Source: Plastoroseomonas arctica
Lineage (GTDB): Bacteria; Pseudomonadota; Alphaproteobacteria; Acetobacterales; Acetobacteraceae
Length of the DNA stretch: 64,000 nucleotides
Direction of reading: 5' to 3'
Assembly: GCF_018128965.1 (NCBI RefSeq)
Contig: NZ_JAAEDH010000006.1
Coordinates: 1 to 64,000 of the forward strand
Below, piece by piece: positions 2,369 to 15,909 of this stretch (the stretch's first letter is position 1; each line of letters starts with the position of its first letter). A program made the position numbers and the translations under genes. The notes below the pieces were generated by a model, which searched no databases, had not been told where the DNA came from, and saw nothing but the letters and a program-made list of their open reading frames with translations.

Positions 2369-2809
2369 TCACATCGCCAGCCGATAGAAGACCAGGCCGC
2401 CGATCTCCGCCTCCGGCACCCGCCCCACCGCCCAGGCCGGCAACCGCTCCGCCGCGTGGTAGTGCGTCGCCCCACCCGTGGAATCGGGCAGGACGCCCGA
2501 GGCCGCGCGCGCCGCAATGCGCCGGCAGATCGCCAGCGCCATGTCGTCCTCGCCCAACGCTAACATCGGCGCATGGCGCGGATGCCGCGGATGCCAGCAC
2601 CCGAACTGGAACGGCGCCCGGCAAATGCCGCTCACCCCCCTGCCCCAATGCCGCGGCCCGTCCGGTGCGGCCACCATCCGAACCCGGTTGATGATCGCCG
2701 CCGCCACGCCCTCGATGGCGCGCACCGGTCGCTCCGCCGCCTCGCCCCACAAGGTCAGCGCCAATACCTCCACCGAAGTCGCGCTGCGCGCCTGCACCGC
2801 CGCCGACAT
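2369..2809 (-). CDS. SleB-type cell wall hydrolase (probable endolysin)
   Basis: A 146-residue protein of the SleB/Hydrolase_2 family, which cleaves the glycan strands of peptidoglycan. Visible signatures are the WGEA block with the likely catalytic Glu23, a central QFGCW segment (about residues 68-72) and the conserved THYHA motif near residues 115-119. No clear signal peptide is seen. The ATG at 2809 overlaps the stop of the upstream membrane-protein gene as TGATG, indicating translational coupling. A coupled small membrane protein plus hydrolase looks like a phage lysis pair (holin plus endolysin). A longer in-frame start at 2848 exists but would lie inside the upstream gene. SleB proteins also occur as host enzymes, so the lysis role is inferred from context. 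Confidence 0.82.
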   Translation of the reverse strand: MSAAVQARSATSVEVLALTLWGEAAERPVRAIEGVAAAIINRVRMVAAPDGPRHWGRGVSGICRAPFQFGCWHPRHPRHAPMLALGEDDMALAICRRIAARAASGVLPDSTGGATHYHAAERLPAWAVGRVPEAEIGGLVFYRLAM

Positions 2810-3135
2810 CAGCGCGCATCCTTCTTCGGCGAGGAACACGTCGCACACCCGCGCCCGATCTCGTTGATCTTGCTCTCGATCCGCAGCATGTGCTCCGATA
2901 GCCGCCGATCCACATCGCGGATCAGCGACAACGGCACATAGGTCCGCGCCACCTCCAGCTTGTAATCCGCCAGGTCCTCGCGCGTGCGGGTCAGGGCCTC
3001 AGCCCCACGCTCGTCAATCCGATCCGACCGATTCAAAAAATCCTGGCGCAACCCGTGAATCATCCAGAACAGGCCAGCGGCCACCGGAATCTCCACGAAC
3101 CTGACCCAGGACGCAGGATCAAACTCCACAGCCAT
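2809..3135 (-). CDS. Small membrane-anchored protein, possible holin or spanin-like
   Basis: A 108-residue protein with one hydrophobic segment near the N-terminus (about residues 12-28), then a long charged helical region (about residues 30-95) with a coiled-coil look. It ends in two cysteines and a Lys-rich tail. I do not recognise a named family. Size, single membrane segment and TGATG coupling to the cell-wall hydrolase suggest a lysis accessory protein. A single-span protein with a cytoplasmic or periplasmic coil could equally be a regulator of the hydrolase. The ATG at 3135 was chosen because the sequence upstream in this frame does not look like protein. Confidence 0.65.
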   Translation of the reverse strand: MAVEFDPASWVRFVEIPVAAGLFWMIHGLRQDFLNRSDRIDERGAEALTRTREDLADYKLEVARTYVPLSLIRDVDRRLSEHMLRIESKINEIGRGCATCSSPKKDAR

Positions 3136-3162
3136 GACGCGAACCCTTCTTTCTGAGGTGAC

Positions 3163-3417
3163 TTGAAGCGCGAAAGGCCCGGCCCCACCCTGCGAATGAT
3201 GTGGACCGAGCCCTACCTGGAAACCTGCTGCCGATCGGCGCTGCACCGCCTGACCCTGGTCGCCGACCACGGCCGGCCGCCCGGGCTCAAGGACGGCCCC
3301 TGCCTCGACCGCCTCACCAACCTCGGCCTCGCCCACCCCCGCCCCGACGGCCGGTACGAGATCACCGACCCCGGCCGAGCGCGCCACGCGACGGAAGTGC
3401 TGAAGGCGGTGGGGTAG
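3163..3417 (+). CDS. Small winged-helix-like hypothetical protein
   Basis: An 84-residue protein on the strand opposite the phage structural genes. The C-terminal half (about residues 46-82) has the spacing of a winged helix: a helix ending in LGL, a DGRY turn-strand, then an ITDPGRARHA helix. This is a pattern inference only. The likely start is TTG at 3163 with GAGG just upstream; two adjacent ATGs at 3193 and 3196 are alternatives without a visible ribosome site. Only 27 bases separate it from the divergent membrane-protein gene, so their promoters must overlap. It could regulate the lysis genes, but nothing direct shows this. Confidence 0.5.
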   Translation: MKRERPGPTLRMMWTEPYLETCCRSALHRLTLVADHGRPPGLKDGPCLDRLTNLGLAHPRPDGRYEITDPGRARHATEVLKAVG

Positions 3418-3427
3418 AGAGCAAGGC

Positions 3428-3723
3428 AAGCAAGGCGGGGGGCTTTGCCCCCTCGACCCCCGCCAGGAGCCTGTGGCCCCTGGACCCCCCTTTGTTCGTT
3501 TTTGGGTTGGGGTAGGGCTGGGACTTCATCGATGGTGCGCCGGGGTGGGGAGGGGGCGCGTCTAGGGCGTTCCCGTGACAGGGGAGTTCGCTGCGCCCCC
3601 TCCCCACCCCGACACGCCTCCGGCGAGCCTCAAACCCCTTCCCAAAACCGAGAACCAACAAATGGAGGTCGAGGATCGACACGATCCTGGCGGGGTCCAG
3701 GGGCAGAGCCCCTGGCCTTGCTT
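3428..3723. repeat. Inverted pair of GC-rich hairpin repeats in a 314-base gene gap
   Basis: The gap between the small winged-helix-like gene and the terminase stop carries two related repeat units in opposite orientation. Both outer ends read AAGCAAGGC (3428-3436, and its complement at 3715-3723). Each unit continues with a short GC hairpin, a CTGGACCCC motif and a TTTGTT(C/G)GTTTTTGGG-like tract. At the centre is a perfect 19-base inverted repeat (3541-3559 with 3593-3611) around a 33-base loop. It looks like a REP/BIME-type intergenic element. It may also terminate transcription from both sides, since the genes converge here. No protein-coding signal is seen. Confidence 0.7.
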
Positions 3724-3731
3724 TCTTTCTC

Positions 3732-5156
3732 CTACCCCCCCCGCCAGTCAGCACTCCGCGGCATGGGCGCCGCGCGGGCCAGGCGGACGGGTTCGGCCAG
3801 GAGGCAGCCCGCAACCGCGTCCAGGGCGTCGTCGGGTTGGTTGGGGGCTCCGGGGCGCCATTCGGACATTTCGGTCGGGAAGGGCGTTTGCCAGAGGCTG
3901 GTGTGGGCGTGGAGGCGCCGCGCTGCGAGTGCGGGTTCAATGGCGCCGAGGATGCGATCGTCCTTGGCGCGTCGGTTCGCGTGGTCGAGCACGGTGCAGG
4001 CAGCGCCGGCGCGGGCGAGTTCCCGGCGCAGCAGGGCGGGCAGGAATTTCCCGATACCGTTGGTCTCGATGCGGATGATGGGCAGCAGGAGGTCTCGGGC
4101 GATCTGGGCCACCTGGCGGCATTGCTGGGTGGCGGGGTCGTCCGCGGCGTCCGGGTCCACCGCGAGGTAGGCGATGCGGTGGAGGAAGTGGGCGCCCTCG
4201 GCGTCCGAATACAGCGCGGCAAGGACGGAGGCATCGCCTCCCGTTCGGCCGAAGGCGGGGTCCCAGAAGGCGCCGCCGGCGACCAGGCGGCGGCCGAGCA
4301 GCGTCAGCGTCGGGCGGCCGTGGACTTCGGCGTAAAGGGGTTCTTCGGCGTAGCGGATGAGGGCGGCGGGGTCGAGGCGGACGGCGGTTTCGTCCACCGC
4401 CTGGAGGAGCATCTGGCGGCGGAACTGGGTAGGGCCGACGCGGTCGCGCAGCGTGGCGATGGCGTCGGGCGGGAAGCGTTCGGGCCAGGCGCTGCGGCCG
4501 GCGGCGTCGGTGATGGGGATGGTCAGGCGCCGGTAGCCGCGGAGGTAGGCGTTGGGCTTGTAGAGGCTGTCGGCGGTGTGCGGGGTGCCGACGAACAGCA
4601 GCGTGCCGGTGGGGGTCAGGACGAATTCGGTTTCCGCCAAACGGTCGCGCAGCTCCTCGCGCTTGGCGGCGGTGTCGCAATTGCCGGCGACTTCGACGTC
4701 GTCGCAGATGACGAGTTCGGCGCGGTCGCCGGTGATGTTGCCGCCGATGCCCTGGGCGCGCATGGACGCGTCGCGCAGGGCACCGTCGCGGGCCACCGTG
4801 AAGCGGTCCGACGCCCAGGCATCGGCATTGCCGGGGATGAGGTGGGCACACAGCGGGTGGCGTTCGATGATGCGGCGGACATGGGTCACCATCTTGCCGG
4901 CGAGCATCTGGTCGGCGGCCAGCACCAGGATGCGCGTCTCCGGCCGCCGCGCGAGCAGCCAGGCGGACCACAGGCCGATGAGCGTGGACTTGCCGCAGCC
5001 GCGGAAGGCGGTCAGAGCCAGGCGCCGGTCGCCGGCCGCATCGCGCGCCATGAACCACCGCGCGATGCGGCGGTGGAGTGCGGGTGTGGCGAGCGTGTGG
5101 GCGTGATTCCAGATCCAGAGGAATTCGAGAAACTCACTCGTCCTTTGCGGACTCAT
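3732..5156 (-). CDS. Phage terminase large subunit
   Basis: A 474-residue DNA-packaging motor. The ATPase domain has Walker A FRGCGKST (51-58) and Walker B LVICDDVE (148-155), followed by a coupling segment GTLLFVGTPH (184-193). The C-terminal RNase H-like nuclease domain shows the expected acidic residues: Asp299 in FWDPAFG, Glu364 in IRIETNG and the DDALDAVAG motif (442-450). Both active sites appear intact, so packaging could still work. Length is slightly short of T7-type TerL (about 580) but complete. Its start overlaps the end of the small gene in the TerS position by 23 bases. It is the last of the head and tail genes before the repeat-filled gap. Confidence 0.93.
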   Translation of the reverse strand: MSPQRTSEFLEFLWIWNHAHTLATPALHRRIARWFMARDAAGDRRLALTAFRGCGKSTLIGLWSAWLLARRPETRILVLAADQMLAGKMVTHVRRIIERHPLCAHLIPGNADAWASDRFTVARDGALRDASMRAQGIGGNITGDRAELVICDDVEVAGNCDTAAKREELRDRLAETEFVLTPTGTLLFVGTPHTADSLYKPNAYLRGYRRLTIPITDAAGRSAWPERFPPDAIATLRDRVGPTQFRRQMLLQAVDETAVRLDPAALIRYAEEPLYAEVHGRPTLTLLGRRLVAGGAFWDPAFGRTGGDASVLAALYSDAEGAHFLHRIAYLAVDPDAADDPATQQCRQVAQIARDLLLPIIRIETNGIGKFLPALLRRELARAGAACTVLDHANRRAKDDRILGAIEPALAARRLHAHTSLWQTPFPTEMSEWRPGAPNQPDDALDAVAGCLLAEPVRLARAAPMPRSADWRGG

Positions 5157-5466
5157 CGATGTCCTGCTCCTCTTCGTGGGTCAGGGCGAGGGCGCGGCGC
5201 GCTTCCGCGAGGATGGCGGCGGCGCCGGCGTCGCGCGGGATGTCGGGGTTGAGCAGGCGAGCGACCTTGACCAGCTGCTCGCGATGGCCGAGCGCGGCGC
5301 GGCCGGCATTGTGGCGGGCGATGAAGGCCTTGGCGTCGGTATCCTCCTCGACGGGGGCGGTGGCGGCCATGAAGCGTTCGTATTCGCCGATGACCTTGGC
5401 GAGCGCGGCGTTGAGGTCGGGCGCCGGGCGCGGCTGAGCGGGCACCAGGGCCTGGCGCGGCTTCAT
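5134..5466 (-). CDS. Small protein in the terminase small-subunit position
   Basis: A 110-residue, mostly helical, acidic protein without a motif I can name. In T7-like phages the gene between the tail fibre and TerL encodes the small terminase subunit, which recognises DNA for packaging; the position here is the same, so TerS is the working call. Its ATG overlaps the tailspike stop as ATGA (5463-5466), and its 3' end overlaps the TerL start by 23 bases, so all three are translationally linked. An obvious helix-turn-helix is not visible, which leaves room for non-specific (headful) DNA recognition or another role. Confidence 0.7.
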   Translation of the reverse strand: MKPRQALVPAQPRPAPDLNAALAKVIGEYERFMAATAPVEEDTDAKAFIARHNAGRAALGHREQLVKVARLLNPDIPRDAGAAAILAEARRALALTHEEEQDIDESAKDE

Positions 5467-7742
5467 GCTTTCACGACGCGGCCGCGCACGATCCCGGCGC
5501 CCAGGTCGATCGCGGCGGCGGAGCGGTTCCAGGCGGTGACGGTGACGATGTCCGTCGCCCCCACCTGGGCGAGGAAGACCACGCCCGAGGTGGCGAGCGA
5601 GAAGCTGGCCGAGGCGAAGTCGCCCGGCCGCGCGCCGGTGAGCGGCAGGTTGAACTGCGTGGTGCCATCGGCCGCGATGGAGGGCGGGTCCCAGGACTGC
5701 TCGGCGGTCAGCTCGCGCGCGCCATGCGGCAGGTCCGGCTGGCCGAACAGGACCGAGGGCGCGAAGCCGGGGTCGCAGGCCAGCGACATCGCGCGCACCT
5801 CATAGTCGCGGCCGATCCGGGCCACGCCGATGATCGCGTAGGCCACCTGCGGGGCGAGGCGGACGACCTGGCGGCGGGTGAGATCCGCGTCGGTCATGTC
5901 GACATTGCCCTGCCACCATTTGGCGGCCGCGTTCCAGATGAGCGCCTGGCCGGAGGCGGTGACCATGGTGCCGTCGGCATCGGTGAGCAGGGTCATGTTG
6001 GCGTCGAAGCACTGCACGATCATGCGCGGGTCATCGGCATCGATGACGAGGGCGAATTCGCGGCAGGCGTGGGCATCGGCGACGAAGCCCAAGCCGCGCC
6101 CGACGGTCAGGATCACGCCACGATCGGTGAAGGTGAAGTTCGACAAGCCGGGAAAGGCGTAGCCCGCGAGTGCGGTGGGCGAGCCGGCGACATTCGAAGA
6201 GAGGCAGGCGAGTTTTTCAAAACCCCATTCGGTGTTGGACCAGCGGATGCGCGCCGCGCGCAGGCAGGGCACGGATGCGACGGTACGGCTCGCCTCACGA
6301 AAGGCCGCGCCCTGGTGATAGGTGCGCACGACGGCGCCGACGCGGGTGACGCCCACGTAGTCGACCGAGACATTGTAGGCCTGGCTCGCCCAGGCGATTT
6401 CGTAGACATGGTCCTGCGCCGGGCCGGTGTGGCGCGCGACGTAGGGCGAGCATCCCTCCATCCGGATGGCGCGCGCCCAGACCGCGCGTGAGGAGACCTG
6501 GCACAGGAAGGGAATGCCGCTGATCGGGCGGCCCTCGGCCTGCAGCTCAAAGCCGGGCGCGTCGAAGATGTGGCGGTTGTGCGCGATGTAGGCGCCCGGC
6601 TCGGCGGACAGGCGGATGCCATAGCGATCCTGCGTCGGGTAGAGCGAGGAGGCGATGGCGAAGTGGCCGCCATAATAGCGCACGGATGTGTTCCACGCCG
6701 CGGCGGTCGCAGTGTGGATGTCGAGGCCGATCTTGTTGTTGATGATGCGGCCAAGCTGGAGCGTGGAGTCCTCGAAGCCGCGCTCCTCGCCGAGCGTGCG
6801 GATGCCGATGGTGAAGCCCTCGACCTGGCGGATTTCGATCTGCGTCGCGTCCATGTTGCGCAGCACCAGGCCGATATCGCCCTCGTTGGTCCAATCGGAG
6901 ATCGCGGCGCGGATGACGCGCAGGCCGTGGTAGAATTTGGTCGCGTTTCGCGTGGCGCTGCCGTCGCCGATGGTGAGCGCGGTGGTGCCGGCCGGGCCGG
7001 CATAGACGATCGCGCCACGCATGATCATGCCTGCGGCGGCACCGGGCAGGACCAGCGGCTGGGTCGCGCGGTGGCTGCCTTCGCCGATCACCAGAAAGCG
7101 CCCGGCGGCGGCGGCGGCGTTCATCGCGGCCTGGAGCGCGGGCGTGTCGTCGGTGACGCCATCGCCCACGGCGCCGAAATCCCGCGTCGAGAGGGATTGC
7201 GAGAGCTTGTCCTCGACGGTCGTGGGGATCGCACCCGTGAAGGGCGCGGTCAGAAGCGTGGAGTTGCGGTCGAACAGCGTGATCGCACCGACGCTGTCAA
7301 AGCCGAGCACGCGGTTTGCCCGCGCACCGCGCAGCGGCAGGGTGGTGGTCGCACTGCCTTCGGCGGGGTCGAAGCGGAGCGTGTCGCTGACGTCGGCAGC
7401 CACGTCCTGCATGGCCGCGATCTGGTAGTCGAGCTCATCGTTCAGGGCGCTCGCGCGGAGGATCGCGTTGTCCTGGAAATCCGTGGTGCGCGAGATGCGC
7501 AGCCGGCGGCGCAGCGCCAGCCGCGTGCCCGGCAGCGGCGGTTCGACGAACCGAACCGTGCCGCCCTCGGAGAGACCCGCGCCGACCACTTCGAAGCCAC
7601 CGTTCAGCGGCACGCCGTTGACGCGCAGCTCCAGATCCTCCTCGACGAAGATCGGGAAGGGGAAGGTGAAATCGGCCTGGATGCCGTCGGCGACATACTG
7701 CACGCGCGGCGCGATATCGCCGATGGTGATGTGCTCGGACAT
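5463..7742 (-). CDS. Phage tailspike/tail fibre with pectate-lyase-like beta-helix
   Basis: A 759-residue protein. The first 150 residues resemble the T7 tail fibre N-terminal domain that docks on the tail tube (VQYVADGIQADFTFPFPIF, then a stretch of short strands). Around residues 180-215 comes the DFGAVGDGVTDD motif that opens pectate-lyase-superfamily right-handed beta-helix spikes, followed by a long repeat of short strands. The C-terminal 250 residues look like a receptor-binding or capping region. The role is host surface binding and possibly polysaccharide degradation. It lies between the gp14-like gene and the TerS-position gene, as in T7. It shares the DFGAVGDG start-of-helix motif with the orphan spike at 59936. 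Confidence 0.87.
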   Translation of the reverse strand: MSEHITIGDIAPRVQYVADGIQADFTFPFPIFVEEDLELRVNGVPLNGGFEVVGAGLSEGGTVRFVEPPLPGTRLALRRRLRISRTTDFQDNAILRASALNDELDYQIAAMQDVAADVSDTLRFDPAEGSATTTLPLRGARANRVLGFDSVGAITLFDRNSTLLTAPFTGAIPTTVEDKLSQSLSTRDFGAVGDGVTDDTPALQAAMNAAAAAGRFLVIGEGSHRATQPLVLPGAAAGMIMRGAIVYAGPAGTTALTIGDGSATRNATKFYHGLRVIRAAISDWTNEGDIGLVLRNMDATQIEIRQVEGFTIGIRTLGEERGFEDSTLQLGRIINNKIGLDIHTATAAAWNTSVRYYGGHFAIASSLYPTQDRYGIRLSAEPGAYIAHNRHIFDAPGFELQAEGRPISGIPFLCQVSSRAVWARAIRMEGCSPYVARHTGPAQDHVYEIAWASQAYNVSVDYVGVTRVGAVVRTYHQGAAFREASRTVASVPCLRAARIRWSNTEWGFEKLACLSSNVAGSPTALAGYAFPGLSNFTFTDRGVILTVGRGLGFVADAHACREFALVIDADDPRMIVQCFDANMTLLTDADGTMVTASGQALIWNAAAKWWQGNVDMTDADLTRRQVVRLAPQVAYAIIGVARIGRDYEVRAMSLACDPGFAPSVLFGQPDLPHGARELTAEQSWDPPSIAADGTTQFNLPLTGARPGDFASASFSLATSGVVFLAQVGATDIVTVTAWNRSAAAIDLGAGIVRGRVVKA

Positions 7743-7768: not shown

Positions 7769-8299
7769 TCAGCCGAGCAGGTTGCGGGCGAGCGCGCCGA
7801 CGCTGTTGCCGAGGGTCAGGTAGTTGGGCGACGCAATCGAGCTGGTGGCGAAGGACCCGCTGGCGGGCTGGAGCAGGCTGCGGCGATTGGCCGCGAGGCG
7901 GGCATTGAGCAGCGCGGAATCCTGCGCGTCGCTTGCAGCCGCATCCTGTTGCAGGCCATCGACCAGCGCCTGGGCGGAACCGCCGGAGGGATCCACGCCG
8001 CCCGCGGCGAGCCGCGCGCGCGCCTGGGCGATGGTGCGCTTGAGCGTCGCGTCGCGCTGGGCGCGGCTGGCTTCATCGGCCAGGCGCAGCTGCTCGGCGC
8101 GGGCCGCCTCATCGGCGACGGTCGCGGCGTTGCGGACGTCCACCTGCGCCTGGCGTTCCGCGACCTGCGCTGCCTGCTGCACCGCCTGCTGGCGCTGCGC
8201 TTCCTTCTGGCGCTTCTCGGCGTCCTGCTTCTGCTGGACCTGCCCGTAGATGCTGGCACCGGCGCCGATGACGCTGGCCAGCGATGCGATCTGTGCCAT
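7769..8299 (-). CDS. Internal-virion-protein-like, gp14 position
   Basis: A 176-residue protein with a hydrophobic Gly/Ala-rich N-terminus (about residues 2-20), a long Gln/Ala/Arg-rich coiled coil (about 22-110) and a Ser-rich tail. T7 gp14, the outer-membrane part of the DNA ejection channel, has similar size and layout and the same place after the tail tubular B gene, so I call it gp14-like by position and shape rather than by motif. The ATG at 8299 overlaps the previous stop as TGATG; a TTG one codon earlier is possible. The much larger ejection proteins gp15 and gp16 that should follow are missing. Confidence 0.7.
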   Translation of the reverse strand: MAQIASLASVIGAGASIYGQVQQKQDAEKRQKEAQRQQAVQQAAQVAERQAQVDVRNAATVADEAARAEQLRLADEASRAQRDATLKRTIAQARARLAAGGVDPSGGSAQALVDGLQQDAAASDAQDSALLNARLAANRRSLLQPASGSFATSSIASPNYLTLGNSVGALARNLLG

Positions 8300-10179
8300 C
8301 AATTGGATGTCCTTGCCTCGGTGGTGACGGAAAGCAGCGTGAGCGGCAGCGGCGTGTCGCCCTCGATGCGCCAGGGCGCGTCGAGGCCGCCGCGTCGCCA
8401 GCCGATGGCACCGAGCGTGACGTCGCCGGTGAAGGGCTCCGGCGCGGCGTCGAGCCGGTTGAGGTCGAGCCTGCGGAACGGCACCGAGCGCAGGCCGCGC
8501 CCGACATCGGCAGTCAGCGCCGCGGTGTCGAGCACGCGGAAGGTGATGGTCACGCTGCGCCGCGGACCAGTGGTGATCCCGATGTTGCTGGCAGCCACGA
8601 CCGGCATCGGTTCGATGCGGTGGGTGAAGAGCAACCCGGCCTGGCCGCTGCGCGCCGTGGGCGCCAGCGCGATCGCGCCGTTGTTCACCAGCGCGGGATC
8701 CCGCGGCGCGCCATCGGCCACCAGCCCCACCGTGCGACCTTCCAGATGATCGAGACCAGCGAGGCTCGTCCGTGCCGCGGTGCCGGCAAAGCTGATCGCG
8801 GCGTCGAGCCCGAGCGTGCCGTCGAAGCGCTCGAGCCGCTGGCTGCCATTGCGCTCCACCAGCGCCCAGATGGTGCCGTCGGTCTCCGCAAGGTCGCGGA
8901 ACAGCCCATCGGTTTCCTGCCGCGTCCAGGCGGTGACCTGCTCGGCGCGGTAGATGGTGAGCGTGGCGAGCGAGCCATCGGCCATCGCGATATGCAACAG
9001 CCGAGACCGCGCGTCATAGGCCAGCGCACGCGGACCCTGCACCAGGTGCCGCGCGAGGATCGCGAGGTCGTTCGCCTGGTAGATCTGCTGGAGATCCGTG
9101 TAGGTGAACTCATGCACGCTCTGCCCCGAGCGCGAGGCGAAGATGGTCGCGCCATCCACATCGACGGTGGGCAGCATCCGGTCCGTGCGGCTGCCCACGC
9201 GCGTCTGCCGCGTGAGCTGGATGGAGGAGGGCGTCAGCGGCTCGCCGGTGACCATCCATTCCGAGCCTGAGGTGAAGACCTGCAGGTGCCGGCCGGAGAA
9301 CACGCCGCGAATGGCATTGGCCTGGTCGGAGACGAGGGCGAAGTCGATGCCCTCGTCATCGAGGCCGGTGCCCGGGTCGAAATCGAAGCTCGACGCCGTG
9401 CGCGACAGGAACAGGCGGTTCGGCAGATCCCGCGTGCCGCCGATCACCAGGCGCTGCTGGTGGAAGCAGGCGCAGATCGGCCAGCCGCGCGCATCACCGA
9501 AGGCGGATTCATCCCAGGACGCGGTCGCGGCAGTCCCTGTGAGCGGCGCATCCACCACGGCGGCGGAGACCACGGTGGCGCTGTTCACCGTGTTGATCGA
9601 AACGCGCCGTCCATTGATGCGCAGGCGCGCACCCAGATGCCCGGCGCTGAACACCGGCGCCGACGCGGTGACCGTGACGAGACCGGTGGTGCCGGAGGTC
9701 GCGAGCGTGATGGCGCCATCGACGAAGCGATGGAAGGGCTCGCGCACCAGCGGCCAGGATGCGAGGCTCCAGCCCGTACCGTTTCGGGCGATGCGCTGCG
9801 GCGGCAGGTTCGGGTGCAGGATCAGCGCGGCGTCGTCGCTCTGCGTCCAGGCGATCTGCGGCAGCATCGGCCCGGTCCAGGGTGCCGCGATCTGCGCTGT
9901 GCGCACGTCACCCGTGTAGATCGAGAGCAGCCCGTCGGTGAGCACGAAGAGGTAGGTGAGCTCGGCATTCACCTCGAAGGGGATCAGCCGTGCCTCGCCC
10001 GGCAGGGTCGCGATGTGGCGAAGGCCGGGGCGGCGCGTGACGCCGCCTGTCGGCTGGATGAACACGTTGCGCAGGCGCCGCGCGCCCGTCTCATAGGCGC
10101 GCAGATCCACGCGGCCGAGCAGCTCGGGCGCGAGCTCGCCGGCGGTGAACGCCGTCTTGGCGCGGAAGGAGGCGCTCAT
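8299..10179 (-). CDS. Phage tail tubular protein B (nozzle)
   Basis: A 626-residue protein of the T7 gp12-like nozzle type, forming the distal part of the short non-contractile tail. The opening is characteristic: FTAGELAPELLGRVDLRAYE, then a GARRLRNVF segment and TGGVTRRPGLRHIA (about residues 12-57). The body is an all-beta propeller-like repeat. Length is somewhat below T7 gp12 (about 794). It starts inside the end of the tail tubular A gene (ATGA at 10176-10179) and ends overlapping the gp14-like gene. No frameshift or internal stop is visible. Confidence 0.88.
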   Translation of the reverse strand: MSASFRAKTAFTAGELAPELLGRVDLRAYETGARRLRNVFIQPTGGVTRRPGLRHIATLPGEARLIPFEVNAELTYLFVLTDGLLSIYTGDVRTAQIAAPWTGPMLPQIAWTQSDDAALILHPNLPPQRIARNGTGWSLASWPLVREPFHRFVDGAITLATSGTTGLVTVTASAPVFSAGHLGARLRINGRRVSINTVNSATVVSAAVVDAPLTGTAATASWDESAFGDARGWPICACFHQQRLVIGGTRDLPNRLFLSRTASSFDFDPGTGLDDEGIDFALVSDQANAIRGVFSGRHLQVFTSGSEWMVTGEPLTPSSIQLTRQTRVGSRTDRMLPTVDVDGATIFASRSGQSVHEFTYTDLQQIYQANDLAILARHLVQGPRALAYDARSRLLHIAMADGSLATLTIYRAEQVTAWTRQETDGLFRDLAETDGTIWALVERNGSQRLERFDGTLGLDAAISFAGTAARTSLAGLDHLEGRTVGLVADGAPRDPALVNNGAIALAPTARSGQAGLLFTHRIEPMPVVAASNIGITTGPRRSVTITFRVLDTAALTADVGRGLRSVPFRRLDLNRLDAAPEPFTGDVTLGAIGWRRGGLDAPWRIEGDTPLPLTLLSVTTEARTSN

Positions 10180-10748
10180 GACCGCCCCCGCACGGTGATG
10201 AGCGGGTAGTCCTCGATCGCGCGTGGCGTGCCCTGCTGGCTGTCGGTCTGCCGCGCCGCGCGGAATTCGGTGTCGGCGAGCTTGTAGAGAAGCTCCGCGC
10301 GCTGCGTGCTCTCGGTCAGCGGAAGGCAGAATTCGGCGGCCAGGCGGGCAGCGAGAAGTGCGGCGAAGAAGGGCGGGAAGACGCTCTCATCGGGGCGGAA
10401 GATGTGGGTGAGGATGATCGAGTCCGCGTCCGTGTGCAGACGGTCCTCCAGCAGGCGGAACGGCACGCCGCGGCCGCGCACCCCCTGCCCGGCTGACAGC
10501 GCGCGCAGGAAGGTTGGCGGCAGCTGGTAGGCATAGGCGAAGTCCGCAACCGGTGTTGCGGCCAGGCGCGGCAGCGTAGCCTGGCCGGTCGCGAAGCTCC
10601 ACGGGTGGGCGGAGAGCAGCGCGTCGCGCGTGCCGGCATACAGGGAGGCCGCGACCTCGGCTTCGGCCGTGCCGTCGTCGAAGGAGGCGACCGGGCGCGC
10701 GCCGATCTTCAGCAACGCGCGCGAGCAGAGCGCGAGGGCGTTCGCCAT
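10176..10748 (-). CDS. Phage tail tubular protein A (gatekeeper)
   Basis: A 190-residue T7 gp11-like adaptor that joins the portal to the nozzle. Recognisable blocks are MANALALCSRALLKIGA at the start, LLSAHPWSFATG (about 45-56), and a central YAYQLPPTFLRAL segment (about 72-84). I chose the ATG at 10748; an in-frame extension to 10853 would read through the palindromic repeat and is not credible protein. It is followed with a four-base overlap by tail tubular B. Because the repeat lies just upstream, its translation depends on a transcript that crosses that hairpin or starts after it. Confidence 0.86.
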   Translation of the reverse strand: MANALALCSRALLKIGARPVASFDDGTAEAEVAASLYAGTRDALLSAHPWSFATGQATLPRLAATPVADFAYAYQLPPTFLRALSAGQGVRGRGVPFRLLEDRLHTDADSIILTHIFRPDESVFPPFFAALLAARLAAEFCLPLTESTQRAELLYKLADTEFRAARQTDSQQGTPRAIEDYPLITVRGRS

Positions 10749-10780
10749 GGGTGTCTCCGGAAAAAGGGGAAAAGAAAGGT

Positions 10781-10854
10781 CGGGGAAAGGAATTTCCCCG
10801 GACCCCATTCTTTTATTTTTGCTTTTTGGTGCTGGCTGGGCGGCCAGCACCAAA
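10781..10854. repeat. Palindromic dispersed repeat, copy A (inside phage operon)
   Basis: Hairpin CGGGGAAA/TTTCCCCG (10781-10800), then GACCCC, a TTTTATTTTT tract, then a second stem TTTGGTGCTGGC/GCCAGCACCAAA (10825-10836 with 10843-10854). The same ordered parts occur at 37939, 41598 and 47721. This copy lies just after the major capsid stop and ahead of tail tubular A. Stem plus T-tract could act as a terminator, here in the middle of the structural operon. The right-hand outer arm seen in copies C and D is not present. Confidence 0.85.
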
Positions 10855-10865
10855 GCTTGCTGCGC

Positions 10866-11696
10866 TTATTCCTTGGCGCGCATCCGGACCACGCCGGCGT
10901 CATCGATCATCACCGCGCCCTGCGACATCATGTTGTTGATGAAGCTGGCGGCGCGATCGCCATGCCAGGAGATGTCCGTCGTCACTTCCGCGTTCACGGC
11001 GTGGCCCACGGCCGTGCGGTGGTAGAAGTAGCAGTACCGCAGGTTGCCCACCTTCGTGAGGCCGGAATGCGGAATCCACAGCGCGCCGAGCCAGCGCTTC
11101 GCCTGGGTGCCGCGCCAGGGCAGCTGGTCGTCGCCGATATAGTCCGCGTTCACGAACTCATCGATCGCGAGCAGATCGCTCCACTGCTTCCAGCCGACCA
11201 CCGCGAAGCGGTTGCCGTCATCGGGCACATTCGCATCGCCCATCTTCTCGAAGGCGAGCAGCACCTTCGCCTTGGTCAGCGGGTCCGTGTCCGTGGTGCC
11301 GGCGACGGTGCTGACCGCCTCGCGCGTCGCGGTGTCCAGCGCGGCGATGATCAGCTCGTCGGTCTTGCGGCCGAGGGCGTAGGCGCCGGCGTTGGCGATG
11401 ACCGTGCGCTCATCGATGTTGGTCTTCAGCTCGTCGAGCTTGTCGATCCACTCGCCGGCATAATAATCCTGCAGGAAGCATTCGACGGCGTCGTAGGCCA
11501 GGTTCATCACCGGCACGGTGCCGTTGCGCGCCTTGGCCGCGGCCGTGCCGGTGCCGACCTTGGGGAAGGAGGTGCTGGCGCCGACGACGCCGGACTTGCT
11601 GCGCACGGTGGGGCGCAGCTTGGAGCCCATGCGCTGGTAGGCCTCATGGACCTCGGCTTCGAACTGCTTGACGAAGGCGACATCGATCGCGGGCAT
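10866..11696 (-). CDS. Phage major capsid protein
   Basis: A 276-residue protein in the capsid slot between scaffold and tail tubular A. It opens with MPAIDVAFVKQFEAEVHEAYQRMGSK-like helical sequence, has a central helix with YYAGEWIDKLDELKT (about residues 78-92) and a beta-rich C-terminus, consistent with the HK97 fold of T7-like capsids though somewhat short (T7 gp10A is about 345). Start is ATG at 11696. Upstream in-frame sequence to 11849 is Pro/Arg-rich noise. No frameshifted minor form is apparent. The 237-base gap upstream and the repeat downstream make it the most isolated gene of the operon. Confidence 0.87.
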   Translation of the reverse strand: MPAIDVAFVKQFEAEVHEAYQRMGSKLRPTVRSKSGVVGASTSFPKVGTGTAAAKARNGTVPVMNLAYDAVECFLQDYYAGEWIDKLDELKTNIDERTVIANAGAYALGRKTDELIIAALDTATREAVSTVAGTTDTDPLTKAKVLLAFEKMGDANVPDDGNRFAVVGWKQWSDLLAIDEFVNADYIGDDQLPWRGTQAKRWLGALWIPHSGLTKVGNLRYCYFYHRTAVGHAVNAEVTTDISWHGDRAASFINNMMSQGAVMIDDAGVVRMRAKE

Positions 11697-11815
11697 TGGG
11701 AATGTCCTTGGATGTGGGGGATGGGTGCGCCGCGCCCGGGTTCCCCCGAAGGGCCCGCGGCGCGGCGGCGTCCCGCGCGCCCTGGTGGGGTTGTGCGCGG
11801 GCAAAGGGATTGCTG

Positions 11816-11849
11816 GTGGGCGGGCAGCACGGGGGTGCTGCCCGCCCAC
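11816..11849. other. Strong GC hairpin between scaffold and capsid genes
   Basis: A perfect 15-base inverted repeat (11816-11830 with 11835-11849) closes on a GGGG loop in the 237-base gap between the scaffold stop (11934) and capsid start (11696). No T-tract follows on the minus strand, so it is not a standard intrinsic terminator. It could be an RNA processing or stability element that sets the capsid-to-scaffold ratio. The rest of the gap shows only GC-rich sequence. Confidence 0.6.
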
Positions 11850-11933: not shown

Positions 11934-12659
11934 TCAGCTCTTCGTCAGGCGGCGGAAGCCTTCGGTGACGCGCTTGACGAAGTCGGGCTCGCGGGTGCGC
12001 CAGTAGCGCGGGTCGCGCATCATCACGCGCAGCTCCTGCTCCTGGGACGCGGCGGGCTGCTCGGCGGCGCGCATCAAAGCGGGCTCGCGCTTGGCCATCA
12101 TGCCGTGCATGGCGACGACGCCGTCATGGCTGGTACTCAGCGCCTCGAAGACGTGCGGCGCCAGGTTCGCGCGGCCCCAGGCGGCGATCTGGCCGGCCAT
12201 GCGGCGGAAGGCTTCGTCGCCACCGAAATGGGCGCGCAGGCGGTCCACCTCGCGCTCGGCCTCGACCTCGCGCACGGCGTCGGCGATCAGCGGCAGCAGG
12301 CGCTCAGCAGCCAGGTCGTAGACGAGTTGCGCCTGCTTCGGCGTGAAGCCCGCTTCGTGCAGACGCGCATTGATGGCGGCATCGGCGGAGAGCAGGTCAT
12401 GCGGGGCGGTGATGGCGTAGCCATCGGGCTTTTCCGGCACACCGAGGGCGCGCAGGAAGCGCTGGCGCTCCTCCTCCGGCGCGTCGGGCGCCGGCGGGCC
12501 GGCGCGCTGGGACAGGCGGCGCTCCAGTTCCAGGTAGGATTTCAGCAGCGCCTCGGTGCGGAGCGTGCCGGCCTCGGCATCCCAGAATTTTTCCGGCACG
12601 CCATCGGGGATGGCGGCGGGTTCGGGCTTGCTGGCGGCTTCGAGCAGGTCCTGGCTCAT
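11934..12659 (-). CDS. Phage capsid scaffolding protein
   Basis: A 241-residue, acidic, largely helical protein in the scaffold position between portal and major capsid, as in T7 (gp9). It carries a PEKFWDAEAGTLRTEALLKSY-like opening (about residues 21-41), a segment common in podoviral scaffold proteins, a coiled middle region and a basic C-terminal helix (FVKRVTEGFRRL) that would bind capsid subunits. The ATG at 12659 overlaps the portal stop as TGATG. Role: templates procapsid assembly and leaves before DNA filling. Confidence 0.82.
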   Translation of the reverse strand: MSQDLLEAASKPEPAAIPDGVPEKFWDAEAGTLRTEALLKSYLELERRLSQRAGPPAPDAPEEERQRFLRALGVPEKPDGYAITAPHDLLSADAAINARLHEAGFTPKQAQLVYDLAAERLLPLIADAVREVEAEREVDRLRAHFGGDEAFRRMAGQIAAWGRANLAPHVFEALSTSHDGVVAMHGMMAKREPALMRAAEQPAASQEQELRVMMRDPRYWRTREPDFVKRVTEGFRRLTKS

Positions 12660-14125
12660 GCGGGCGACACTCCGTTCTGCGTTGCTTGGAGAGGTTTCAG
12701 AATCTCGGCCGGGGCGTTGAGGCTGCGGGCGAGCCAACGGGTGGCCGCCGCGGCATCGACCTGTGCGGCGGCATCGGGGCCGAGCTGCCCCACCGCCTGG
12801 AGGAACAGCAGCGTATTGGCGGCATCCGCCCGGCCCTGGACCTGGGCGAGCGGGCTCGCGTAGCGCAGGCGCAGTTCCTGCCCATCCTGCGTCTGCGGCG
12901 CGATCTCGCCGCGGCGGCGAAGGATCGCGAGGCAGCGCGTCACCAGCGGGGTCAGCAGTTCTGATTGCAGCCGGCCATAGGTGGCGCCGAGGCGCCGGGC
13001 GGTCTCGGCGCTGCGGTCCATCACCTCGGTCGCCGTCATCCGGCCTTCGCGCTGCGGCGAGAGACGGTCCGCGAGCAGGGCGGTGCGGATGCGGGCGCGG
13101 AGGTCGTTGAGCACGAGTTGCGAGACATCGAAGCGGCCCGGCGCGGCGAGCGGCGTAAGGCCCGCCGAGCCCGGCGCCTTGGGGATGATCGCGCCCGGCA
13201 CCAGGCGGATGGTCGCCGGGTTGAGCACGCCGTCATCCTCGGCCTGCCAGATTCCGGTGGCCGCGATGGAGGCGTTTTTCAGCACCAGCTCGACGACCAG
13301 GTTGGCGGTGCGGATATCCGGCAGCGCCTTGCCGACCGGGCCGCGGCCATAGGTCTCGCCGGGCGCCTTGAGCCAACGGAAGGCGATGAAGGGATTTTCG
13401 GCAAAGCGGCCCTCGGCGAGCGGCCATACATGGCCGTCATCGCCGGCGAGCAGCGCGGTGAAGCTGGTCGCGTGGGCATCTGGATGGACGGCTTCCAGGA
13501 CGCGGTGCCGGGCGGGTTCGCCCTCGCCATCCGCGTGCAGGACGGCGGCGGGCAGCGTCGCGTCCGGGTAGCGGGCGGCGATGGCGGCGGCCGTCATGCT
13601 ACGGGCGCGCCAGATGGTATCGAGCCGGCCGGAGGTGCCTTCCTCCAGCACCGTCTCCCGCAGCGGCACTGCGGCGAAACGCAGCGCGGAGGGCTCGCCG
13701 GGCGCGGCTTCCTCGACGAGGATGATGCCGGTGCCGGTGATGACCAGGTCGAGGAAGGCCTGGTGCATCTCGAGCGCGAAGTTGGAGCGGTCGAGGTGCA
13801 GCTGCAGCATCTCGGCCGCGTCTTCCAGCGCCAGCGCGGTGGCGCGGGCGGCGGGGCTGTCATCCAGCGGCCGCGCCGGGGCCAGGCCGAACCAGCGGGA
13901 CCAGGGCGGGCAGAGTTCCGCCAGAAGCGAGGCGGCGAGCTGTTCCGCCGCATCGGCCGCGGTAGCGTCGAAGAGCTGCGCGGCCTTGCCAGGCTCCGGC
14001 AGGGTCTGGTCGTAGCAATCCTGCCAAAAAGCCTCGAAGGGGCGGCGGCGGTCGAGGGCGCGGGCATGGCGCGCCAGCATCTGCTCGAGCGGCAGGCTCT
14101 CGGGCGGCGTGGGCCGTGGGGTCAC
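12656..14125 (-). CDS. Phage portal protein (head-tail connector)
   Basis: A 489-residue T7 gp8-like portal. It has the typical opening LEQMLARHARALDRRRPFEAFWQDCYDQTLP-like helix (about residues 14-44), the motif SLLAELCPPWSRWFGL (about 66-81), a long mixed domain, and a C-terminal crown helix region with AQVQGRADAANTLLFLQ (about 424-440). I chose GTG at 14125 because AGGAG lies 7 bases upstream; the longer reading from ATG 14167 starts before that ribosome site. It ends overlapping the scaffold start. Together with TerL it forms the packaging gate. No truncation is seen. Confidence 0.89.
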   Translation of the reverse strand: MTPRPTPPESLPLEQMLARHARALDRRRPFEAFWQDCYDQTLPEPGKAAQLFDATAADAAEQLAASLLAELCPPWSRWFGLAPARPLDDSPAARATALALEDAAEMLQLHLDRSNFALEMHQAFLDLVITGTGIILVEEAAPGEPSALRFAAVPLRETVLEEGTSGRLDTIWRARSMTAAAIAARYPDATLPAAVLHADGEGEPARHRVLEAVHPDAHATSFTALLAGDDGHVWPLAEGRFAENPFIAFRWLKAPGETYGRGPVGKALPDIRTANLVVELVLKNASIAATGIWQAEDDGVLNPATIRLVPGAIIPKAPGSAGLTPLAAPGRFDVSQLVLNDLRARIRTALLADRLSPQREGRMTATEVMDRSAETARRLGATYGRLQSELLTPLVTRCLAILRRRGEIAPQTQDGQELRLRYASPLAQVQGRADAANTLLFLQAVGQLGPDAAAQVDAAAATRWLARSLNAPAEILKPLQATQNGVSPA

Positions 14126-14265
14126 GCTGACACTCCTGCGACAATGGGGGGGCCCAAAAAGCCGCAAGCCCGGACCGCTCCGGTGAAGGAGCAGGCCGGG
14201 CCCGCGGAAGTTTGGGGAACGGGAGGAAGGCCACCGGGCGCACGTCGCCCGTTGACAGGAGCTTT

Positions 14266-14772
14266 CTAGGCGAGGCCGACGGAAGATGTCAAGTTTATTT
14301 TCCTATTCCCAAAACCTTTCTGCAACCTGCGGAAGAGCACCGCCGGCGTCAGCGCAAAGGGCGCGTCGGGACCGAGCAGGGCACGGCACAGGGCGACGCA
14401 GGTGAAGGGAAGGATCGGCGGAATCGTGCGTGCACGGCCCGGCATGGGCGTGAAGGGGCCGAGAACTGACAGGCCGGCGCGCGTATAGACCGCTGGCAGG
14501 TCGAACGCCGCGTCGAGCGGCAGCCGCTGCACCAGCAGCCGGCCCGAAAGTGGGTCGAGGATTGTCCATCCCTCCGCATCGGCGATGGCCGCGAAGCAAT
14601 GCCGGAAGCCCGGCGAAAGCAGGCGAAGCCACCATTGGTCGGCGCGGCCGCCGAACACGATGTAGATGCGTTGGCCGGCATCGTCCGCGATGCGGCGATG
14701 CGCGATCCGAGGCGCATGAGGGCGCTGGAAATCCAGGTTTTCAAAGGCGAACTCATGCACGGCCTCGCTCAT
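14266..14772 (-). CDS. Conserved hypothetical protein upstream of portal
   Basis: A 168-residue protein I cannot name. It has a YIVFGGRADQWWLRLLSPGFRHCFAAI-like core (about residues 35-62) with several aromatic residues and an HC pair, a Pro-rich middle and a helical C-terminus. The composition suggests a compact alpha/beta fold, possibly peptidase-like around the His-Cys pair, but no catalytic set can be assigned. Its ATG (14772) overlaps the upstream gene as ATGA. A 140-base gap separates it from the portal gene. Its position at the operon head suggests a role tied to particle production. Confidence 0.75.
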   Translation of the reverse strand: MSEAVHEFAFENLDFQRPHAPRIAHRRIADDAGQRIYIVFGGRADQWWLRLLSPGFRHCFAAIADAEGWTILDPLSGRLLVQRLPLDAAFDLPAVYTRAGLSVLGPFTPMPGRARTIPPILPFTCVALCRALLGPDAPFALTPAVLFRRLQKGFGNRKINLTSSVGLA

Positions 14773-15143
14773 GCGACAATCCCCTTCACGCGCAGCGGCC
14801 ATTCGAGGCGCGAGAGGGCTTCGGTCCAGATCGCGTGGTCGCGCGCCTCGCTCAGGTGGCGCGGCGACGGCTGCACGCCGCGCTCGCCCCACAGACGCAG
14901 GATGCGCGCGTGCACCAGGTCGATGCGGCGCTGGCGATACAGGCGATCAAGGCATTTCACCACGTCGTCGGGTTCGCAATTGCGCGGCACGGCCCCGCGA
15001 TTGGCCACGATGCGGGCACCGTCGCGGCGCGCCATCAGCGCGGCCATGGTCCAGAACCAGGCTTCCTCGGCGGTGGCGAAGGGCACGGCCTTGGACAGCG
15101 AGGCGTAGCGGGGGGAGAGGGCGTGGTGGGGGGCAGCGCGCAT
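14769..15143 (-). CDS. Conserved alphaproteobacterial hypothetical, first gene of the phage-like operon
   Basis: A 124-residue basic protein with an EEAWFWTMAALMARRDGA helix (about residues 26-43), a CEPDDVVKCLDRLYRQRRID motif (about 56-75) and a C-terminal RLEWPLRVKGIVA. I recall similar proteins as conserved, unnamed genes in Rhodospirillales, but cannot verify this here. A winged-helix or small DNA-binding role would fit the basic helices; this is inference. ATG at 15143 has GAAGG about 9 bases upstream, and the LexA-like box lies 22-36 bases upstream of the start codon. It is the promoter-proximal gene of the whole leftward operon. Confidence 0.8.
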   Translation of the reverse strand: MRAAPHHALSPRYASLSKAVPFATAEEAWFWTMAALMARRDGARIVANRGAVPRNCEPDDVVKCLDRLYRQRRIDLVHARILRLWGERGVQPSPRHLSEARDHAIWTEALSRLEWPLRVKGIVA

Positions 15144-15164: not shown

Positions 15165-15179
15165 GAACACAACAAGAAC
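15165..15179 (-). promoter_or_regulatory. LexA-type SOS box (GAAC-N7-GAAC)
   Basis: The sequence GAACACAACAAGAAC fits exactly the direct-repeat box GTTC-N7-GTTC (complement GAAC-N7-GAAC) known for LexA in alphaproteobacteria. It lies between the divergent S24 regulator and the first gene of the leftward phage-like operon, close to the expected transcription start of the latter. It could bind LexA or the neighbouring S24/HTH regulator. Promoter elements on either strand are not clear enough to call. Confidence 0.65.
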
Positions 15180-15264
15180 ATACCCGCCAAGGTTGTGCTC
15201 GTCTATACGAAATCTTGAAAATGTTCCTATTGCATTCTGACGGAAGACCTAGGATGTTATCCCC

Positions 15265-15909
15265 ATGCGACACGATGACATCTGGCGGGCGCTCGACGCC
15301 CTCGCCGCCGAGAACGGGCTTTCGGCCTCTGGCCTGGCCCGCAAGGCCGGGCTGGACCCGACGGCCTTCAACCCCTCCAAGCGCACAGGCGTGGACGGGC
15401 GGGCGCGATGGCCCTCGACCGAAAGCATCGCCAAGGTGCTGGACGCGACGACCACCGGCATCGAGGCCTTCGCCGAGCTCGTCACCGGGCAGCGCGCGCT
15501 GCTCTCGGGCCGTGGCCCGGCGCGGCGGCACATCCCGCTGATCGGCTTCGCCCAGGCCGGATCGGAGGGGTATTTCGACGATGGCGGCTTCCCAGTCGGC
15601 GGCAGCTGGGACGAGATCTCGATGCCCGAGATTACCGACCCGCACGCCTATGCGCTCGAAATCTCAGGCGAATCGATGGAGCCCGTCCTGCGCGATGGCG
15701 ACACCATCATCGTCTCGCCGGCGGCCCCCGTGCGGCGCGGCGACCGCGTCGTCGTGCGCACGACCAAGGGCGAGGTGATGGCCAAGGAGCTCACGCGGCA
15801 ATCAGCGCGGCGGATCGAGCTCAAGAGCCTCAACCCGGCGCATCCGAGCTACAGCTTCGACCTCGGTGACATCACCTGGATGCACCGCATCGTCTGGTCC
15901 ACCCAGTAG
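15265..15909 (+). CDS. HTH transcriptional regulator with S24 (LexA/CI-like) peptidase domain
   Basis: A 214-residue repressor. An XRE-like helix-turn-helix covers about residues 5-65, with GLARKAGLDPTAFNPSKR as the recognition region. The S24 autoprotease domain covers about 88-210: likely cleavage bond Ala98-Gly99 (FAQAGSEG), nucleophile Ser137 in GESMEP and general base Lys174 in VMAKEL. All parts needed for RecA-stimulated self-cleavage are present. It is divergent from the phage-like operon with a 121-base gap holding a GAAC-N7-GAAC box, so control of that operon is likely. Similar regulators also occur as stand-alone chromosomal genes in alphaproteobacteria, so it need not be of phage origin. 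Confidence 0.88.
   Translation: MRHDDIWRALDALAAENGLSASGLARKAGLDPTAFNPSKRTGVDGRARWPSTESIAKVLDATTTGIEAFAELVTGQRALLSGRGPARRHIPLIGFAQAGSEGYFDDGGFPVGGSWDEISMPEITDPHAYALEISGESMEPVLRDGDTIIVSPAAPVRRGDRVVVRTTKGEVMAKELTRQSARRIELKSLNPAHPSYSFDLGDITWMHRIVWSTQ

Follow-up and report, generated by a model that had tools for sequence, protein, structure and literature searches.

Does the SOS response govern a phage-derived gene cluster in Plastoroseomonas arctica (Acetobacteraceae), and how far into that cluster would its influence reach? The question is raised by the 15-mer GAACACAACAAGAAC at 15165-15179 on the + strand of the window, by which we mean the whole stretch of 64,000 nucleotides that was analysed. 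An earlier note had claimed an exact GAAC-N7-GAAC here and it is present as described; we classify it as a LexA-type SOS box from this exact match, its conservation and its spacer score. The LexA (SOS) box of Alphaproteobacteria is given as GTTCN7GTTC/GAACN7GAAC in the cited parts of PMC3091678 and PMC6473078, and the half-sites and spacing of the window box are identical to it. In contrast to the usual LexA box, the one in the window precedes a domesticated phage operon with a putative antiterminator instead of a repair gene. It lies between two diverging genes, p124 on the - strand and an S24 regulator on the + strand, with 21 bp separating it from the p124 start codon and 85 bp from that of S24. 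The same note had placed the box upstream of the first structural gene of the operon; the position is correct, but p124 probably codes for a regulator rather than a structural protein.

Taken by itself the box is at chance level, since the window holds a single exact match and shuffles lead one to expect 1.16. The genome-wide scan that had been proposed gave 59 exact matches as compared to 37 for a reversed-pattern control, an excess that suggests perhaps 20 real boxes in the genome, the window's lone copy remaining what chance would give. A promoter scan of the site detected no consensus promoter, and an AT-rich ATAAA beside it is conserved across the family regions.

Conservation of the box and likeness to SOS-gene boxes

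The significance of the box comes from its conservation at orthologous promoters, not from its occurrence in one window. Among 397 genomes of the family, S24 was matched in 313 (E 1e-20), p124 in 210 (E 1e-5) and the portal gene of the cluster in 119 (E 1e-10), the latter mostly in single copy and with full-length matches mostly 60-76% identical. We used 80 of the 119 portal-bearing genomes, chiefly the top of the list, with fragments and some lower rows omitted. The 80 S24-p124 regions analyzed consist of 79 fetched loci and the window; L104, where S24 is displaced and no box was found, was left aside. An exact GAAC-N7-GAAC is present in 61 of the 80 regions, where 0.36 would be expected from base composition. 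All 61 copies have the same orientation, lie 18-54 bp from p124 and keep identical half-sites between flanks that vary, and 19 of the 22 genera sampled have at least one. The earlier note had made its reading depend on conservation in syntenic relatives, and the box is conserved there, though not universally.

In six of the 19 regions without an exact box (L086, L102, L105, L120, L125, L130) a copy with one mismatch occupies the usual position and orientation. The other 13 have neither form at that place and orientation; genus g17 accounts for six of them and g44 for three, the others being L097, L100 (two mismatches), L145 and L147. At L095 and L098, both of g17, a one-mismatch copy lies at the place of the box in the opposite orientation, and in this genus the exact box is absent from 7 of 11 genomes. 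Since 19 of 80 regions are without the exact box, LexA input is not obligatory and, as far as promoter sequences can tell, it is dispensable or replaced in these relatives, the seven g17 genomes among them.

A palindrome, TAGGYGTCAACRCCTA, is found in the S24-p124 region of all 11 g17 loci (L077, L081, L082, L086, L087, L089, L092, L094, L095, L098 and L101), seven of which have no exact LexA box. Possibly it serves another regulator, perhaps S24 itself, that replaces the SOS input. CCTA half-sites also occur in the conserved S24 promoter element described below.

The motif is shared with SOS genes in these bacteria. In the own genome it is located 60 bp before lexA as GAACTTTTCTAGAAC, between uvrA and ssb, before imuA and before an ImuB-like gene (LexA by PF01726, the other names by eye from translations). 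For each SOS gene we analyzed 30 loci in a set of 31 genomes selected, G001 excepted, for carrying the cluster, with strands assigned by tblastn. In the 300 bp upstream of the gene, the motif was found at 28 of 30 lexA loci, 28 of 30 ssb/uvrA loci and 21 of 30 imuA loci; at recA, with a limit of 400 bp, it was found at 13 of 30. This sharing, the conservation at orthologous promoters and the recurrence of the box in other families in both orientations support the earlier identification as an SOS box well.

The likeness extends into the spacer. Scoring with a model built from 91 SOS-gene sites, which covers the seven bases of the spacer and two that flank the site, gave mean scores of 5.7 bits for the cluster boxes and 6.1 for the SOS boxes (AUC 0.47), as compared to -5.6 bits for 54 other sites of the own genome, from which the cluster boxes are well separated (AUC 0.93). 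This background omits the four named SOS sites and that of the window, and real LexA sites may remain in it. At 9.6 bits the window box is second to that of imuA (10.8) among the scored own-genome sites, and none of the 54 background sites reaches this value. Three cluster 15-mers are identical to a SOS-gene 15-mer and no background 15-mer is. Taken together, we consider it highly probable that the box is a LexA operator. Two further exact boxes of this genome, L237 on contig 16 and L231 on contig 13, precede ribonucleotide reductase-like and ParE-like genes, as judged by eye; these genes are possibly further SOS members, and their boxes are outside the twelve best sites of the spacer model.

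The gene cluster and its two putative regulators

Leftward from the box, all on the - strand, runs a compact block of about 13 kb. Its first gene is p124 (14769-15143), coding for 124 amino acids, and the start of the next, pB (14266-14772), a conserved protein found in all 74 loci longer than 14 kb, overlaps the p124 stop (ATGA). They are followed by the portal or head-tail connector (12656-14167; PF12236, E 2e-122), a T7-type scaffold or capsid assembly protein (11934-12737; PF05396, E 3e-16) and the major capsid protein (10866-11849; PF19821, E 1e-80), the true starts of the latter two being probably internal. Two tail tubular proteins (10176-10853 and 8299-10179) match the 'tail protein' families phrog_394 and phrog_376, which we take to be T7 gp11-like and gp12-like, respectively. 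A 177-aa protein (7769-8302) weakly resembles the internal virion protein gp14 of T7, with a match that falls short of the cut-off (E 0.005), and precedes a tail spike or fibre with a pectate-lyase-like domain (5463-7742; domain and phrog matches), a 110-aa protein (5134-5466) found in 27 of 74 loci and a T7-type large terminase (3732-5156; NF033889, 394 bits at a cut-off of 150). The block ends with lysis genes: p105 (2812-3135; 69 of 74 loci), a 108-aa protein that by its hydrophobic N-terminus and long helix-prone part is, by eye, a candidate holin or spanin, and a cell wall hydrolase (2369-2848; PF07486, E 5e-9; 68 of 74 loci) that is a candidate endolysin.

Nearly all long family loci share this order, from S24, p124 and pB through portal, scaffold, capsid, gp11, gp12, the 177-aa protein, tail spike and, where present, the 110-aa protein, to terminase and lysis genes, and p124, pB, portal, scaffold, capsid, gp11 and terminase are found together in 74 of 74. 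Some gaps between genes are about 100 bp and more, and a weak terminator-like hairpin is located inside the operon (10800-10781). The integrase and replication genes of a complete prophage, and polymerase genes, are absent among the proteins scanned in 2.4-16.6 kb. An ORF of 206 amino acids (2809-3429) was rejected as its N-terminal part runs antisense to a small + strand gene, and only its C-terminal 108 amino acids were kept. That small gene, of about 84 aa (3163-3417), lies between terminase and lysis genes and was matched in 66 of 74 long loci; in G001 (L260) its counterpart directly adjoins S24 and marks the site without the cluster.

Sequence-family searches with 25 p124 members gave no significant family, and a Foldseek search with its AlphaFold model (four helices, pLDDT 83) found nothing significant (E about 5), seven of the 23 weak rows being Q21. 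In a structural realignment with VIA-align 2, in which 48 chains were compared, the seven best rows were all phage 21 Q, aligned over 84-93 residues with Z 6.1-7.7, after which Z fell to 2.1. The fold of p124 residues 21-121 thus resembles Q21 (PDB 6p18, 6jny, 6p1a; Z up to 7.7), although there is no significant sequence similarity and identity in the structural alignment is 12-14%. We treat the likeness as a lead, since values of Z under 8 are middling where the protein is helical and the comparison covered 48 chains. Q-type factors work at the head of late operons; p124, like Q21, stands at the operon head, which fits such a reading. From its modelled fold, p124 is probably a regulator, a Q21-type antiterminator, rather than a structural gene.

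The diverging S24 repressor-like regulator (15265-15909, + strand; PF00717) has the residues Ala98-Gly99, Ser137 and Lys174 identical in 80 of 80 family proteins; in a wider set of 17 S24 proteins Gly99 is near-invariant. Gly and Ser are 38 residues apart and Ser and Lys 37, the corresponding distances in E. coli LexA being 34 and 37. The protein thus has the Ala-Gly site, Ser and Lys of self-cleaving S24 proteins (LexA/CI/UmuD type) at LexA-like spacing, and would probably cleave itself and act as a second damage input. Its predicted structure is poor (pLDDT 67). In front of the S24 gene lies the element CCTATTG-N15-CCTAGGAT (15226-15254, + strand), present in 70 of 80 regions with one spacing (16) in 69; by eye we found a close version at L265 and parts of it at L260 and L266. 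It is a candidate S24 core promoter and/or the operator of S24 itself.

Inheritance and distribution

The cluster is vertically inherited and under purifying selection. The median dN/dS over the ten genes tested is 0.17-0.28 (S24, 0.19), after removal of sequences interrupted by a stop codon within the alignment (17 of 77 for capsid, 0-5 for the other genes). Portal, capsid, terminase and gp12 each give distances that are correlated with those of RecA (Spearman 0.33-0.46, p 0.001 each, 28-29 genomes), and the corresponding value for S24 is 0.34. The host neighbours on the S24 side of the window are not shared (PCMT in none of 74 long loci), and on the opposite side DUF952 is found in 50 of 74. 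Within the genus of the window, S24 (90%) was matched in G001, where p124 and portal are missing, and all three are missing from G002; L142 and L262 have lost parts of the cluster. The best 80 of at least 501 named genomes with related sequences belong to Acetobacteraceae or are MAGs whose titles name Rhodospirillales, Alphaproteobacteria or a genus of Acetobacteraceae, and the best 80 of 387 IMG/VR relatives are contigs of up to 16.2 kb.

A class-wide sample of 318 genomes gave profile matches for p124 in 39 and for the portal in 77. Boxes were counted in 24 of the 38 non-own p124 matches, those with loci given; S24 diverges in 21 of these and a portal follows in 21. An exact box precedes p124 in nine of the 24 (0.19 expected) and is absent in 15. 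Five of the nine have GAAC only on the p124 strand, three GTTC only and one (L563) both, as the direct repeat recognised by LexA allows. In 20 class-level regions, four of them cut by contig ends, we found S24 in 20, portal in 20, pB in 20, p124 in 19, scaffold in 19, capsid in 12 and terminase in nine, in the gene order of the window. Five loci (L576, L579, L581, L589, L593) have S24, p124, pB and portal, with scaffold in all except L579, and no capsid, tail or terminase gene in the 16 kb fetched; they are possibly split clusters or cases of partial loss. Portal and p124 are also kept in five genomes of 0.9-1.2 Mb (G484, G485, G463, G582, G675), which would be surprising for a useless prophage.

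Genes for p124 occur without phage genes as well, and an exact box precedes p124 in 15 of 24 such loci, 11 of 20 newly fetched (the other nine have none) and four of four earlier ones (L263, L267, L268, L269). In an unrooted p124 tree a single branch (95/91) separates all 81 cluster-bearing rows from the 24 phage-less rows, which fitted the idea that phage genes had been captured behind an older host gene. This idea was rejected, as rooting with other families nests the phage-less rows within the cluster-bearing ones, in a tree of this short protein that has weak support and from which 38 cluster rows beyond three per genus were dropped. The nesting makes a single loss more likely than capture; probably the particle genes were lost once, with p124, S24 and often the box retained. 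Directly behind p124 in three of the phage-less loci (L263, L267, L269) we observed a small conserved protein of the NLSVLAYANGFTLWHYK type.

A predicted damage-responsive, GTA-like operon

To which of the two diverging genes does the box belong? A single short region separates the diverging S24 and p124 genes in 80 of 81 loci of the family and in 21 of 24 outside it, and S24-type repressors commonly control the adjacent phage operon, both of which would suit an operator through which S24 represses p124 via GAAC-N7-GAAC with no part for LexA. We find this improbable, because S24 genes without an adjoining p124 (L260, L265, L266) have no box in front of them, and in G052, where p124 (L533) and S24 (L265) are on different contigs, the box is at p124 and none is at S24. 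In addition, the S24 promoter has a different conserved element of its own in 70 of 80 regions, the cluster boxes are indistinguishable from those of lexA, imuA, uvrA and recA, and box orientation varies in other families. A site that stays with p124 when the genes are unlinked, is absent at S24 alone and faces a gene with another element belongs to p124. The decayed locus L262, which keeps a p124 remnant, terminase and lysis genes, has no box.

Given a LexA site at p124, its effect might end with p124, or perhaps pB, while the structural genes respond mainly to other signals. That p124 and box persist in 15 of 24 loci examined without phage genes implies that p124 serves, or once served, some purpose independent of them, and the gaps of about 100 bp and more, the terminator-like hairpin and some other-family loci, where no cluster genes beyond scaffold turned up in the 16 kb fetched, point the same way. 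This reading nevertheless seems unlikely to us, as p124 and pB overlap at ATGA, seven genes from p124 to terminase are found together in every long locus, and an antiterminator-like p124 would itself be tied to the genes downstream. Still further from our expectation, and in our view very improbable, is a disused site left in a decaying prophage. L142 and L262 have indeed lost parts, and 19 of 80 regions are without the exact box; against this stand the low dN/dS over ten genes, half-sites kept identical in 61 loci between variable flanks, and cluster distances that track those of RecA as well as S24's do. As a whole, a LexA-controlled operon is the best explanation, which we hold with good confidence, and we think it fairly likely that damage induction reaches the structural genes, so that the earlier note's prediction of induction for the whole cluster is in part supported.

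In the undamaged cell, LexA bound to the box at the p124 promoter would keep the leftward operon off. DNA damage, by way of RecA, would trigger self-cleavage of LexA and p124 would be made; as a probable Q21-type antiterminator, p124 would let RNA polymerase read through the head, tail, packaging and lysis genes, and short-tailed virus-like particles would be released by cell lysis. S24 would form a second lock, probably cleavable through RecA, so that both locks would open on damage.

The cluster shows several traits expected of a gene transfer agent (GTA): it has phage-derived genes for head, tail and packaging, no gene for replication or integration was found in it, it is inherited vertically, and its genes are under purifying selection. 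RcGTA has an HK97-type capsid, and the capsid of the window matches PF19821 alone. An HK97-type capsid is also described for BaGTA (PMC9662315), and family matches set the window cluster apart from both. Compared with RcGTA, a tailed particle with a 49-nm tail according to the cited part of PMC9662315, the window cluster, known from its genes, differs further in its portal (PF12236), T7-type terminase and podoviral tail. It shares with RcGTA the character of a domesticated phage cluster, and with the Dinoroseobacter shibae GTA also a predicted LexA-type site. According to the parts of PMC6473078 cited, the D. shibae site was predicted in silico and the effect of R. capsulatus LexA on RcGTA runs through cckA. 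The papers considered here link GTAs to starvation, quorum sensing and the CtrA phosphorelay. In the Caulobacter GTA (CcGTA), compared here by description, GafYZ reportedly enable RNA polymerase to proceed beyond a terminator (PMC11150451), which is the role proposed for p124. RogA of the same system, a 213-aa protein with HTH and an S24-like repressor domain, is described as having no cleavage residues (PMC9632790); the window S24 is, by that description, of similar size and domain, and differs in the cleavage residues found in 80 of 80 family proteins.

The nearest named phage is the T7-like podophage EXVC031P (Hodr) of Pelagibacter (portal 38%, capsid 46%), a 34-kb record as compared to the cluster's 13 kb, in which no replication or integration gene was found; closer still is MT838907, a 5-kb metagenome record that carries no annotation (portal 52%, capsid 56%). 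Among the matches listed from the open-licence PMC literature there is no podoviral GTA and no GTA from Acetobacteraceae. Judged by its genes, the cluster is a domesticated, class-wide, GTA-like element outside the known GTA families; whether it functions as a GTA, transferring host DNA, we predict with evenly balanced expectations. More tentatively, we propose an independently domesticated podoviral (T7-like) GTA lineage in many alphaproteobacterial families, headed by S24, LexA box and Q21-like protein with two RecA-sensitive locks, whose control head outlived the particle genes in one Acetobacteraceae branch.

If true, a podoviral example would join the three families of GTAs that the classification of 2022 recognises, as given in the cited part of PMC9662315. 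CcGTA work describes GTAs as aiding survival of DNA damage (PMC9632790, PMC11150451), and GTAs have been proposed to serve recombinational repair (cited part of PMC9632790), a proposal on which a release of packaged DNA triggered by damage would bear. The conserved SOS site on a widespread phage operon unlike that of RcGTA makes such release directly testable, and damaged cells of these bacteria may switch on the production of virus-like particles.
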